This document shows positions 3,299 through 22,537 of a stretch of DNA of 32,002 bases, in pieces. This stretch comes from Halodesulfovibrio spirochaetisodalis (lineage in GTDB: Bacteria > Desulfobacterota > Desulfovibrionia > Desulfovibrionales > Desulfovibrionaceae). The position numbers were made by a program, and so were the translations under genes. The DNA lies in assembly GCF_001672295.1 (NCBI RefSeq), contig NZ_JXMS01000037.1:1-32002 (forward strand), given 5' to 3'. The notes below the pieces were generated by a model. It ran no database searches and was not told where the DNA came from. It saw nothing but the letters and a program-made list of their open reading frames with translations. Numbering within the stretch: the first letter of the stretch is position 1; each line of letters starts with the position of its first letter.

Positions 3299-3406
3299 TG
3301 TTGAAAGTTCTTTAAAAGCAGTATGTTGAACTTTGCATCCTTAGGCAGAGTTTGCCGGAATAGTTTTTATGAGAAGAGATAGGACAAATTTGCAGTGCAA
3401 ATAGCG

Positions 3407-3439
3407 TAAAAAAAGGCAACTTCACTACGAAGTTGCCTT
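3407..3439 (-). terminator. Rho-independent terminator of motB
   Basis: An 11-bp perfect stem (3413-3423 with 3429-3439, AAGGCAACTTC/GAAGTTGCCTT) with a 5-nt loop. On the minus strand it is followed by a run of T. It starts 5 nt after the motB stop codon and ends the STAS-fapA-motA-motB transcript. Confidence 0.92.
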
Positions 3440-6419: not shown

Positions 6420-6750
6420 ATTGTTCTCGATAAAGTAATGCCGGAATTGAATTGAAGTCAGGCTGCGGCATATAACAGTCTGAGCAACTCCAACAATTCA
6501 TCAGGTTCAGAGACTGAACGCTGTTATTGAAACTATGCAGAATTTTCTAATATAAAAAGTAAGTAACTGCAATTTAAGCATTGCTATAAAAATGTAGAGT
6601 CAGTTGCAGCCTGAAATCTGAATGTTTTTGAGATAATTGTTTGAAATAAAATGCAAAAAAGTGCAATAAAAAGCAAAAAATAACAAAATAAGCCTCTTGA
6701 GAACAGTAAAGTTCATAAGAAGGAATAATTTTATGCAGGATAGAAAATAA
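6420..6750. other. Non-coding upstream region of the STAS-fapA-motAB operon
   Basis: About 330 bp with no credible gene. Bases 6472-6527 hold an inverted pair ATAACAG/CTGTTAT that encloses a perfect 6-bp hairpin GTTCAG-AGA-CTGAAC (6505-6519). A second inverted pair, ATGCCG/CGGCAT, lies at about 6439-6470. The right part (6600-6740) is very AT-rich. The operon's promoter must be here, but no strong -10/-35, sigma-28 or correctly spaced sigma-54 element was found. Confidence 0.4.
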
Positions 6751-6795
6751 AAAAACAGATGGTCACATAGTGTTCCTGTGTGACCATCTGTTTTT
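6751..6795 (-). terminator. Strong terminator after dtd
   Basis: A perfect 17-bp stem (6751-6767 with 6779-6795; core ACAGATGGTCACA) with an 11-nt loop, flanked by A and T runs on both sides. It lies about 50 nt past the dtd stop and is symmetric enough to act in both directions, isolating the motility operon from dtd. Confidence 0.92.
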
Positions 6796-6845
6796 TTATT
6801 TCTGAGATGATATGAGGTTAGGCAGGGGGATCCCCGTCGGTATTG

Positions 6846-7313
6846 TTATGCAAAATCTTCTGAAGCGAGCATGATGGTGACAGGCCCCCAGTTTGTGAGG
6901 GAGACGTCCATGTCGGCTCCAAAGACACCGCATTGAACACGTTCCGGAAGCTCAGCCTTACAATTTTCAACAAAGGTATCAAACAGCTTTGTTGCGATGG
7001 CAGGAGGGCAGGCAGATGTAAATGATGGCCTGCGACCTCTACGGCTGTCAGCGTACAGGGTGAACTGTGGTACCAGCAGCAAGTTGTTGCCAGTGTCTTT
7101 TAAACTCAGGTTCATTTTTCCTTGTTCGTCAGAAAAAATACGCAGCCCGATCATTTTTTGCAGCATGGTGTTCCAGACAGCACTTGTCGGAAGTGTTTCT
7201 GTGTCCTGTGCACCAAAGCCGACAAGAACCACCAGTCCATGCTCTATTGAAGCAACGGAAGTGCCATTGATATGAACAGCACCATTTTTAACTCGTTGTA
7301 ATAATAACTTCAT
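6846..7313 (-). CDS. dtd: D-aminoacyl-tRNA deacylase
   Basis: This enzyme removes D-amino acids (and mischarged glycine) from tRNA, a proofreading step outside the ribosome. The 155-residue product is full length for the DTD family. It shows the N-terminal MKLLLQRV start, the QFTLYADSRRGRRPSF motif (about 83-98, catalytic-site Thr85) and the C-terminal cross-subunit NWGPVT motif (G143-P144). The residue before QFTL is Pro (P82), where E. coli Dtd has Ser. The start is the ATG at 7311-7313, 1 nt after the stop codon of the acyl-CoA synthetase, so the two are co-transcribed and probably translationally coupled. A longer in-frame start would overlap the upstream gene. Confidence 0.95.
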   Translation of the reverse strand: MKLLLQRVKNGAVHINGTSVASIEHGLVVLVGFGAQDTETLPTSAVWNTMLQKMIGLRIFSDEQGKMNLSLKDTGNNLLLVPQFTLYADSRRGRRPSFTSACPPAIATKLFDTFVENCKAELPERVQCGVFGADMDVSLTNWGPVTIMLASEDFA

Positions 7314-10355: not shown

Positions 10356-11198
10356 TTAGTCTAGTGTCAGACCGAGTGATTCAAGCACAGCATTGCCGGA
10401 GTAAATAACCAGCGCCTTACCTTTTAAGAAAACGCTGTTACCCTCGATGGATATGCTCAGAATTTCTCCACCTGAAGATTTAACACGTACATCAGTGCCG
10501 GTCAGCCCGAGAGCGTTTGCTACAACAACGCCTGCTACGGCACCAGTACCGCAGGCAAAAGTTTCATCTTCCACACCGCGTTCGTACGTGCGAAGATGTA
10601 CGTTTTCGCGGTCAATAATGCTCATAAAGTTCGCATTGGTGCCGGCAGGTGCAAATACATCATGGTAACGAACCAGCGCGCCGAGTTCTTTAACATTCAG
10701 GGCTGATGCATCTTCTGCCACATACACCGCATGTGGAACACCGGTGTTGACGAAATGGATTTCATCATCACCATCTTTGAGTGTGATAGGTTTATTCAGC
10801 TCAAGTCCTTGAGGCGGGGTGAGTTCCACTTTGATCTCACCATCGTCGCAAAATTCTGCGCGAATAGGGCCGGCATCTGTCCCGAAAGTGTGAACAGGGC
10901 CGGCAAGGCCGATCTCTACTGCAAGTTTTGCAGCACAGCGGGAAGCATTGCCGCACATTTCTGCACGGGAACCGTCGGCATTGTAGAAATGCCATCGGTA
11001 GTCAAGAGCAGGTTCGTCTGAGTTTTCTAAAAAAACAAGCCCGTCTGCACCAACGCCAAATGCGCGGCGGCAGATTTTTTGAGCCCACTCACTCATATGC
11101 GAAACAGGCACATTGTATTCTCTATTATCAATGAATACAAAGTCATTACCGCAGCCTTGCATCTTATAGATAGCTACGAGTCCCTTGGTCGGATTCAT
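10356..11198 (-). CDS. dapF: Diaminopimelate epimerase
   Basis: It converts LL-diaminopimelate to the meso form used in peptidoglycan and lysine synthesis. The 280-residue product has both catalytic cysteines: Cys82 in AEMCGNASRC and Cys216 in TFACGTGAVAG. The N-terminal MQGCGNDFVFID motif is also present. I start at the ATG at 11196-11198 (MNPTKGLVAIYK), which has GAGGAG 6-7 nt upstream and gives the family's usual length. The frame is open for 56 more codons upstream, but that extension reads through the dispersed repeat at 11263-11387 and is unlikely to be translated. Confidence 0.96.
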   Translation of the reverse strand: MNPTKGLVAIYKMQGCGNDFVFIDNREYNVPVSHMSEWAQKICRRAFGVGADGLVFLENSDEPALDYRWHFYNADGSRAEMCGNASRCAAKLAVEIGLAGPVHTFGTDAGPIRAEFCDDGEIKVELTPPQGLELNKPITLKDGDDEIHFVNTGVPHAVYVAEDASALNVKELGALVRYHDVFAPAGTNANFMSIIDRENVHLRTYERGVEDETFACGTGAVAGVVVANALGLTGTDVRVKSSGGEILSISIEGNSVFLKGKALVIYSGNAVLESLGLTLD

Positions 11199-11262
11199 TC
11201 GAACTCCTCGTGCCGGCAGAAAGTGCCCGTTTCTACCGCGCAACCCAAATATAAAAACATTA

Positions 11263-11387
11263 CCAGATTGATGACAAATCCGCACATTGCGGCGTTGCTT
11301 CGAAAAACTCAACGCTTTCATAGGAGTAACTATGACTCGTCTCTGAGTTTTTCTTGCGCCTTGCACTGCAGATTTATTGCAATCTGG
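11263..11387. repeat. Dispersed structured repeat, copy 1
   Basis: About 125 bp bounded by CCAGATT...AATCTGG. Inside are a 5-bp hairpin CCGCA-CAT-TGCGG (11280-11292) and a 9-bp stem GAAAAACTC/GAGTTTTTC (11302-11310 with 11345-11353). That stem encloses an apical 6-bp hairpin TCATAG/CTATGA (11318-11323 with 11330-11335). The 12-mer CCTTGCACTGCA follows at 11359-11370. The same arrangement occurs in reverse orientation at 21190-21315, with the hairpin core and the 12-mer identical. It lies 65 bp upstream of dapF. Confidence 0.85.
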
Positions 11388-11828
11388 CAGGTAAGGACTT
11401 TGTCAACAGTCTCCATTACGTCTGTCTTCTCTGGTTTCGCCAAGCAAATGCGATAGCAGAAAATAGGGATGAAAAAATTTCATCATCAAATCAATAGGGT
11501 GTGTGTAAGGACGCCCGATGGTGTGCAGCACCAAGCACCTTAAGGTGTCTACTCCTATGATTCTGCTGCACAAAAGAAAGAAGGTCAACCCGATAGAGTA
11601 AAGAGATAGAAAATGTTTTGCTTCTAATGAAGATTAATCACAGCCTCTAACCTGTTCTTAGTAAATGCTATTTTTACGTGCTGGTGTAGAAGAACTTGGC
11701 GCTTGCTGTATGGAATTTTGTTCAGAAAAGTTTGCCGGAGGCAGCTTGCATGAAGAGCAATCCGGAGTGGTGTGGGGCAGCTTGTTGTGATTGCGGTAGG
11801 TAGTGAGGGGACAGATAGTAGATAAAAG
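11388..11828. other. Non-coding region between dapF and the HU gene
   Basis: About 440 bp with no credible gene on either strand. Bases 11522-11572 form a nested structure: TGTGCAGCA/TGCTGCACA (9 bp) encloses the perfect palindrome CACCTTAAGGTG (11536-11547). A TTGACA hexamer on the minus strand (11401-11406) could be a -35 element for dapF, but I see no good -10 at the right distance. Bases 11732-11765 can form an imperfect CCGGA/TCCGG hairpin. Confidence 0.4.
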
Positions 11829-21144: not shown

Positions 21145-21189
21145 TCCAGCCGCCTGAGTAAAAAGCGTTTATCAATAAATTCTGTCTGA

Positions 21190-21315
21190 CAGATTGATGA
21201 CAACCTTGTGCAGTGCAAGGAGTAAGAAAAAGTCGGGGGTGAAGCATATTAGACAGATGTGAGCGTCTGACTTTTTCGCAATGACGCCGCAATGTGCGGG
21301 GTTGTCATTAATCTG
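21190..21315. repeat. Dispersed structured repeat, copy 2
   Basis: 126 bp bounded by a 16-bp terminal inverted repeat with one mismatch (CAGATTGATGACAACC at 21190-21205; GGTTGTCATTAATCTG at 21300-21315). Inside are hairpin CCTTG/CAAGG (21204-21220), stem GAAAAAGTC/GACTTTTTC (21226-21234 with 21269-21277) with an apical AGAC/GTCT, and hairpin CCGCA-ATG-TGCGG (21287-21299). It is an inverted, diverged copy of 11263-11387. The M20 peptidase stop codon (21308-21310) lies inside its terminal repeat, so the element may also serve as that gene's 3' structure. Confidence 0.88.
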
Positions 21316-22537
21316 CGGTATCAAACAACATGGTGGCGATAACCTTTGCGTCACCGATGTTGCAGGAGATACGGCTTTTTTCGTTTGGCACATGAGCGTT
21401 CGGGACAAGCTTGCTCCAGCAGGCTACAGGATGTCCTTCGTCACGCAGGTGTGCTGCAACAGTACCACCGCCAACACCTTTCGGCTGCGGTGTTACATTG
21501 TAAACTTTCTTAATGGCACGGTCGAGCTTGGTTACCACTTCACTGTCCACTGGTGTCTGCGTTGTGGACTGATTTGCCTGATGGTCTTCATAGGTGATTT
21601 CCACGCCGTATTCAGCAACAACTTCGTCACCAAGCTTTTTGATTTCTTTGCGGATATCTGCCAGCTCGTAACCCGGCAGAACTCGGCAGTCTACGTAGAA
21701 CACATCAAGACCCGGTACGGTGTTGATGTTTGGTACGTTTGCTTCTTTTTTGGTCGGTGTGAATGTGGAGATCGGAGGATCGAACAGGTCGTCCTTGCGA
21801 TCGAAGATCTCATGCAGTTTTTTGATCTTGAGAATGAATGCGGAGGCTGCCTCAAGTGAGTTGATGCCTTCACAAGGTGTAGATCCGTGGCACTGCTTGC
21901 CGGTAACAGAAATTTTTTCCCAGAGAATGGACTTTTCAGCGACTTCGATCATGGTTCCGTCGGCATCACCGATGTCTGGAACAAGGATGAGGTCGTCTTT
22001 TTTGAAGAGTTCTGGACGCTCTTCCACAACGTACTCAAGACCGTATTTGCTGCCGGTTTCTTCGTCAGCTGTCAGGATGAGGCCGAGAGTGTATTCCGGT
22101 GTGATTGTATTATCCACAAGCCCCTTGGCAACGAGAAGGCCGGAAACAATAGCCTGTTGGTTGTCTTCCACGCCGCGTCCATAGATGTAGTCACCTTCAA
22201 CACGCAGTGTCCAAGGGTCGCTTTCCCACAGGTCGAGATCGCCGGTAGGCACAACATCTGTGTGACCGATAATCCAGAGTGTTTTCTCAGTCTTGCCCGG
22301 AACACGGGTAATGATGGTCGGACGGTATCCGCAGTCAACACGGGAATCCGGAGCGCGAACCTCTTCGATATCCGTAATGTTGTTGGCTTCAAGCCAGCCG
22401 CGCAGATAGTCTGCTTTGTCCTTTTCGCCTTGGCCGCCACTGGACGGGCACAGCGCAGGACGCGCGGTCATCTCTTTTTGAAGTTCAATAACAAGATCAT
22501 GCTGGTCATCAAGAAAATCGAGAAGTTTTTCACTCAT
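21308..22537 (-). CDS. M20-family metallopeptidase/deacylase (DapE/ArgE-like)
   Basis: A 409-residue zinc-dependent amidohydrolase of the M20/ArgE-DapE-ACY1 family. The metal ligands can be traced: His92 in GHTDVVPTGD, Asp125 in YGRGVEDNQ, the Glu pair 159-160 in LTADEETGSKYG (general base and ligand), Asp in LVPDIGDADG and the C-terminal His in VPNAHVPNE. A dimerisation domain insert lies near 205-310. The substrate is not clear: succinyl-diaminopimelate, acetyl-ornithine and dipeptides are all handled by this family. dapA and dapF lie 10 kb away, which does not settle it. The ATG at 22535-22537 has GGAGAA 8 nt upstream. The stop codon is inside repeat copy 2. Confidence 0.88.
   Translation of the reverse strand: MSEKLLDFLDDQHDLVIELQKEMTARPALCPSSGGQGEKDKADYLRGWLEANNITDIEEVRAPDSRVDCGYRPTIITRVPGKTEKTLWIIGHTDVVPTGDLDLWESDPWTLRVEGDYIYGRGVEDNQQAIVSGLLVAKGLVDNTITPEYTLGLILTADEETGSKYGLEYVVEERPELFKKDDLILVPDIGDADGTMIEVAEKSILWEKISVTGKQCHGSTPCEGINSLEAASAFILKIKKLHEIFDRKDDLFDPPISTFTPTKKEANVPNINTVPGLDVFYVDCRVLPGYELADIRKEIKKLGDEVVAEYGVEITYEDHQANQSTTQTPVDSEVVTKLDRAIKKVYNVTPQPKGVGGGTVAAHLRDEGHPVACWSKLVPNAHVPNEKSRISCNIGDAKVIATMLFDTAD

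Follow-up and report, generated by a model that had tools for sequence, protein, structure and literature searches.

The window, a 32,002-nucleotide (nt) stretch of contig NZ_JXMS01000037.1 of Halodesulfovibrio spirochaetisodalis, carries two copies of a dispersed repeat (Table 1). A first-pass annotation had described them as diverged versions of one element in opposite orientation, and both are indeed present, as is the 12-mer CCTTGCACTGCA that they share. The central stems it had read were also located: GAAAAACTC/GAGTTTTTC at 11302-11310/11345-11353 in copy 1 and GAAAAAGTC/GACTTTTTC at 21226-21234/21269-21277 in copy 2. Copy 1 lies 65 bp upstream of the likely ATG (read by eye, at 11198) of a diaminopimelate epimerase gene; the mechanical open reading frame (ORF) of this gene extends to 11366. 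The 3' end of copy 2 contains the final codons and the stop of an M20-family peptidase gene. In Halodesulfovibrio sp. N3, the orthologous gene ends in a stop of its own, and the element is missing. A protein encoded nearby is 89% identical to its counterpart in Halodesulfovibrio sp. N3, which places the host in this genus. Copy 1 covers positions 1-153 of the 153 positions of covariance model R1 (153 bits), and its long hairpin is matched by covariance model R2 at 11264-11386 (111.8 bits). The copy 2 match to positions 1-153 of covariance model R1 begins at 21165. A weak covariance-model match at 6690-6850 of the window was rejected as an element copy by eye, since it consists of a separate inverted repeat followed by Ts. 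This inverted repeat (AACAGATGGTCACA..TGTGACCATCTGTT, then Ts, at 6754-6792) is probably a terminator. A still weaker match lies at 3348-3424.

Table 1. Coordinates of the two element copies and the adjoining genes in the window
Feature	Position	Strand	Evidence or remark
Copy 1, full-length element, 150 bp	11264..11413	-	Exact ends from empty sites in the 5 closest relatives
Target-site duplication CATTAC, one side of copy 1	11258..11263	.	Single copy in relatives
Target-site duplication CATTAC, other side of copy 1	11414..11419	.	Single copy in relatives
R1 (GAGACTGTTGACAAAGTCCTTACCTG), which forms the 5' end of copy 1 and matches the 3' end R2' as an inverted repeat	11388..11413	-	
Long hairpin of copy 1; final ~15 nt (element orientation) are R2', TTTGTCATCAATCTG	11264..11387	-	
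Copy 2, long hairpin	21190..21315	+	Fold; covariance model R2 match, 123.9 bits; element-free site in Halodesulfovibrio sp. N3
Degenerate R1 of copy 2 (L090)	about 21165..21189	+	11/26 R1 letters kept
M20-family peptidase gene	21308..22537	-	Pfam PF01546
Diaminopimelate epimerase gene (dapF-like)	10356..11198	-	Pfam PF01678; GAGGAG ahead of ATG

Alignment of the copies placed the start of the element about 26 nt further 5' than reported. The ~125-bp outline of the first-pass annotation therefore captured a real repeat but was too short, having missed the 26-nt 5' part (R1); copy 1, for instance, spans 11264-11413. From its 5' end, the unit consists of R1, a short linker, and a hairpin of ~125 nt that starts with R2 and ends with R2'. 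R2 is a near copy of R1, and R2', the last ~15 nt, is an inverted repeat of R1. R1 reads GAGACTGTTGACAAAGTCC.. in Halodesulfovibrio and CAGGCTGTTGAAAAAGTC.. in many other Desulfobacterota. In a strict shuffle test, a match between R1 and R2', with R1 placed 23-27 nt ahead of the hairpin, was found in 9 of the 46 genus copies used (from 55 loci) and in 12 of 29 phylum copies; the remaining copies fail this test through divergence of R1. Read by eye, R1 could itself form a small hairpin, CAGCC/GGCTG in genome G050 and GAGCC/GGCTC at loci L203 and L205 of genome G010. At L277 (G181), the R1 segment is inverted relative to the other copies.

For copy 2, the sense-strand fold has an energy of -64.2 kcal/mol (z -7.6), and for copy 1 it has one of -53.4 kcal/mol (z -5.9); none of 200 shuffles was as good in either case. 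The sense strand was the more stable one in 42 of 47 genus copies and in 29 of 29 phylum copies, the latter having been retrieved with a model of this same strand. Hairpin length and fold are kept across the phylum. The CCGCA/TGCGG motif, which had been read as a hairpin core, is present, but the 5-bp hairpin competes with the long one, and its bases pair with the opposite arm in the sense-strand fold. A long hairpin with a preferred strand is what a REP/RAYT-like element would offer, whose hairpin is mobilised in single-stranded form by a Y1 (HUH) transposase. G-U pairs that favour one strand would also suit a cis-acting structured RNA or a small RNA family maintained for an RNA function. A structured, strand-asymmetric body would also fit a SINE-like element, copied via RNA by a reverse transcriptase and leaving variable target duplications. 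These readings are weighed below.

Copies at L067, L069, L070, and L083 (G001, G003, and G007) measure 181-205 bp and carry an additional segment of ~55 nt in the 3' arm; these segments are alike in position and diverged in their letters. Genome G006 also has matches of at least 200 bases among the matches listed. Nine of 15 copies in G050 (L188, L189, L190, L192, L193, L194, L196, L198, and L200) show a CCCCGCG..GCGGGG hairpin in the 5' arm. L205 in G010 has a longer insert. In all of these copies, hairpins are thus nested within the hairpin.

Covariation was counted on a long-hairpin structure that was itself a vote of single-sequence folds of the same sequences. Among 20 copies from this genome (20 of the 27 blastn matches described below), 80.3% of cells pair, compared with 34-43% when the alignment is slid. 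Cells with two-sided changes numbered 43 versus 24.2 in shuffles (0 of 500 reached this value). Of five pair measures, two did not exceed the shuffles in these copies, namely pairs with a two-sided change (17 versus 14.4) and pair types (58 versus 57.3), and an RNAalifold consensus contained 8 pairs only. We then considered 31 genus copies, which we picked from 47 trimmed copies, leaving out the more diverged ones. Here 85.9% of cells are paired, a percentage that is higher because of this exclusion, and 34 of 48 pairs show two-sided changes, as the first-pass annotation had anticipated for further copies. Two-sided cells amounted to 124 versus 42.7 in shuffles (0 of 500), and covariation was 0.314, where shuffles gave 0.173 (0 of 500) and slid alignments no more than 0.106. 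As one example of several, the central stem of L110 is entirely different and yet paired, GTTGTTTTATAA/TTATAAAACAAC.

Paired stems thus persist across the genus despite many two-sided changes. The annotation had highlighted a swapped G/C pair. The two copies do differ in this way, but among the 20 own-genome copies this pair is G-C in 9, C-G in 3, A-U in 2, and unpaired in 6. The compensatory support rests on the whole stem across the genus, and the swapped pair is not its best part. Covariation is also what a structured RNA would show. It is unexpected for passenger DNA, as is the phylum-wide conservation of length and fold, and both therefore speak against an ordinary miniature element (MITE), that is, a deletion derivative of an insertion sequence moved by a DDE transposase, with a fixed short duplication and an incidental hairpin.

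The repeat is abundant. A blastn search with copy 2 against its own genome (G000; 3.61 Mb, 59 contigs) gave 27 matches, ~22 of which were judged real by alignment. Covariance model R1, built from 20 own copies, found at least 67 matches in this genome at E<=0.01. The first-pass annotation had named further copies as support for a mobile element or RNA family, and dozens were found. In six congeners, the model gave at least 37, 21, 12, 10, 10, and 3 matches, and in three other congeners (G002, G005, and G009), one of them 86% complete, it gave none; 150 candidates were scored per genome in this genus search. Covariance model R2, applied to the phylum at E<=1e-4, matched at least 47 of 297 Desulfobacterota genomes, a count that includes the present genome, and at least 38 of 199 genera, these counts being lower bounds because 11 candidates were scored per genome. 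The matches were mostly 117-128 nt long. Nine genomes of other genera of the same family had no match to covariance model R2 among the 11 candidates scored in each. Neither a phage collection (one query) nor a plasmid collection (two queries) contained a match to the Halodesulfovibrio element.

Hairpin repeats of similar form can be seen in many delta-proteobacterial genomes. Among the matches listed in a literature search, we found no description of such repeats in Desulfobacterota in titles and the opening lines of abstracts. Multicopy sequences of Pelobacter are given in supplements, according to the available part of PMC3543383. In this genome, positions 100-1900 of L100 (contig C25, about 31.5-33.3 kb) hold seven near-identical tandem tRNA genes with an anticodon read by eye as ACG, hence tRNA-Arg. 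Element copies occupy four spacers of this array and have two stem types and a common outer sequence. In G010 and G050, many end-pattern matches lie less than 200 bases from contig starts among the matches listed, as would happen if near-identical recent copies had interrupted the assembly.

Comparison with relatives revealed empty sites. At copy 1, the five closest congeners (G001, G003, G006, G007, and G008) are continuous across the site and have a single CATTAC (CATTAT in G003); matches in four more distant congeners end short of it. At copy 2, Halodesulfovibrio sp. N3 has the matching gene end without the element. Two further loci have terminator hairpins at the site. At L058, the same five relatives have one terminator hairpin (AGGCGGC..GCCGCCT) and this genome has one on each side of the element, a duplication of ~17 bp. 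At L091, five relatives have one GGCGCCC..GGGCGC hairpin and this genome again has one per side, a duplication of ~22 bp. The expectation of empty sites was thus borne out in 5 of 5 aligned relatives at copy 1 and at each of the two further loci, and in one congener at copy 2. Insertion, rather than shared ancestry or deletion, best explains the filled and empty sites, and the status of the repeat as a mobile element is close to certain.

The same sites weigh against maintenance for an RNA function, being empty in close relatives. Orientation relative to the flanking genes is mixed, both in the genus (49 of 55 loci, excluding two G004 and four tRNA-array loci: >E> 17, <E< 13, <E> 7, >E< 8, in ORF 4) and in the phylum (29 loci: >E> 5, <E< 8, <E> 6, >E< 7, in ORF 3). 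The element had no Rfam match in the window at the gathering threshold or at 18 loci at E<=1; the matches found elsewhere were to tRNA, RNase P, and 6S, with two further weak ones. There was also no recurrent neighbour, no gene family occurring more than twice in the 63 of 77 listed flanking ORFs that were scanned. Despite the covariation and the strand preference, we regard a structured RNA as improbable. Of the two options left by the first-pass annotation, mobile element or structured RNA family, the first is supported, while an RNA role is neither shown nor needed.

The direct repeats at the ends vary from 4 bp (NTAR) and 6 bp up to a whole terminator hairpin. In G010 and G050, an exact 4-bp (NTAR) repeat flanks 11 of 19 near-identical copies (shuffled mean 3.5, maximum 10 in 10,000); L191, which has a short flank, was counted as a miss and matches by eye. 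Repeats of at least 6 bp, located no more than a few bases from the ends, occur in 5 of 27 genus copies versus 0.85% of mismatched pairings, the 27 being those of 55 loci with a recognisable R1 (at least 14 of 26 letters). L136 has a candidate 9-bp duplication, read from its own flanks alone. The regular NTAR duplication and the inverted ends are typical of an ordinary MITE, and the repeat has the general properties of this class: it is short and gene-less and has inverted ends, a target duplication, and many copies. Duplications that span 4 bp to a whole hairpin, however, are at odds with an ordinary MITE. Variable duplication length is a feature of the SINE-like model, against which stand the inverted-repeat ends of the element. 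That target duplications exist at all speaks against a REP/RAYT-like element.

Targeting of hairpins is seen in two lineages. A hairpin starts 0-2 nt from the 3' end of the element in 10 of 26 copies in this genome and in 8 of 11 copies in G181, compared with control averages of 0.54 and 0.37 copies per window, respectively. Elsewhere this was seen in 1 of 23 other Halodesulfovibrio copies, 1 of 28 one-per-genome loci (from 29 phylum loci), and 0 of 17 copies (from 19 loci) in G010 and G050; the genus count covers the same 49 loci as the orientation count. In G181, flank comparison alone detected the same hairpin on both sides of 7 of 11 copies, with best-orientation scores of 18-29, compared with up to 16 (direct) and 15 (inverted) in 110 mismatched pairings. 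Direct alignment was better in four of the seven copies and inverted alignment in three (L271, L272, and L276). The inverted match is perfect over 24 letters at L272 and narrow at L276 (18 versus 15). An inverted match is partly expected, because terminator hairpins are palindromic.

We propose that an enzyme encoded elsewhere would recognise the paired ends, and probably also the folded hairpin, and would insert the element into a new site. The two target strands would be cut at different places, which would account for the direct repeats. At a terminator hairpin, cuts at its two bases would duplicate the whole hairpin, leaving one on each side. The substrate of the enzyme may be a hairpin or cruciform extruded from the DNA, and this would explain the inverted hairpin copies too; they would also arise if template switching within the palindrome inverted a hairpin once the element had inserted. 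From the hairpin-length and inverted duplications in two lineages, we reason that the enzyme may cut at folded hairpins, a view weakened by their absence elsewhere. Because targeting of hairpins is not general, cuts at their bases may be restricted to some lineages.

Candidate movers were sought in three families (Y1_Tnp, DUF772, and RVT_1). Nine of 14 genomes lacked Y1_Tnp (PF01797), among them this one, five congeners, and G181. This largely refutes a REP/RAYT-like element for this genome. Such an element is also far shorter, 20-40 bp for REPs in the available text of PMC3733652, and we consider this reading very unlikely. RVT_1 was found in 6 of 18 genomes, once in this genome and also in G006, G007, G050, G142, and G237, as a SINE-like element would require. 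It was absent from the other 12, including the carriers G181, G143, G229, G010, G206, G001, G003, and G008. Together with the inverted-repeat ends, this makes copying by a reverse transcriptase most improbable.

DUF772, the sole DDE family searched, was absent from 13 of 14 genomes, and inspection of paired ends revealed no transposase gene between them in this genome, nor in 14 genomes among the matches listed. A wide pair of ends on contig C4 of G142 was examined as a possible parent element and rejected, its ORFs being unlike a transposase by eye. An ordinary MITE is accordingly rather unlikely in our judgement, its inverted ends and the NTAR duplications in G010 and G050 notwithstanding. 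The reading we favour with good confidence is that the repeat is a non-autonomous, gene-less mobile DNA element of ~150 bp, moved via its ends or folded hairpin by an enzyme from elsewhere.

Among known repeats, the element most resembles the Yersinia palindromic sequence YPAL/RU-2, which falls in the same size class. In the available part of PMC2229807, YPAL measures about 167-168 bp, has filled and empty sites, and is flanked by target duplications of 3-26 bp, with targets that span or adjoin dyad symmetry. The element likewise has variable duplications, those of 6, ~17, and ~22 bp being backed by empty sites. The dyad-target habit is matched by its insertion at terminator hairpins in G181, whereas other Halodesulfovibrio and G010 and G050 have no such habit. 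One RU-2 sequence is printed in Table 1b of PMC2759123, of which part was available. In reverse reading, its ends are like those of the element and in the same arrangement (R1, 15 of 19 letters; R2', 16 of 19). In a post hoc test, shuffles of 23-nt ends reached these matches in 2 and 0 of 100,000 cases.

YPAL/RU-2 also differs from the element in several respects. It belongs to a different phylum, and its internal sequence is unlike: covariance models R1 and R2 had 0 matches (E up to 10) at two loci of the same YPAL-like element. The published strand of the RU-2 example, which is opposite to the sense strand of the element, folds better. The NTAR-type 4-bp insertions of the G010 and G050 copies are a further difference. 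Relatives of RU-2 were found in 17 plasmid records and in 5 of 5,426 E. coli genomes. One YPAL-like element is identical on a Citrobacter plasmid and an E. coli chromosome and lies between the like hairpins CAGGGGCCATATGCCCCTG and GGGGCAAAATGCCCCTG. With like ends and a like habit, and a body unmatched by the models, we claim that the element works like YPAL and likely belongs to the YPAL kind; common ancestry of the bodies is left open. More tentatively, it is possible that a phylum-spanning class of gene-less hairpins exists, of which YPAL would be the enterobacterial branch, and that its enzyme reads folded DNA in both element and target, recognising the one as a long hairpin and cutting the other at the bases of extruded hairpins, and leaves duplications equal to a hairpin and possibly inverted.

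Other known families were considered as well. ERIC/RU-1 (127 bp, enterobacteria) differs by description, having 5'-TA-3' termini in the available text of PMC2229807. The bcr1-bcr3 repeats of the Bacillus cereus group are, by the part of PMC3446304 at hand, MITE-like intergenic repeats often found in transcripts; this likeness and the difference that they are described from Bacillus cereus are both by description. REP/RAYT repeats are likewise palindromic, dispersed, and intergenic, and differ in the short length noted above. GTAG REPs are often linked to tyrosine (Y1) transposases in the same available text (PMC3733652), a family absent from this genome.

YPAL-type repeats have been described from enterobacteria, as far as the available parts of PMC2229807 and PMC2759123 go. 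A YPAL-like element in at least 38 of 199 sampled Desulfobacterota genera reaches beyond the enterobacteria of these descriptions. Its covarying hairpin, conserved ends, and terminators copied on both sides provide many natural sites for asking which enzyme moves orphan hairpins. These sites also bear on whether the mover cuts folded DNA. In addition, the element shows a route for the duplication of terminators and the rewriting of gene ends.
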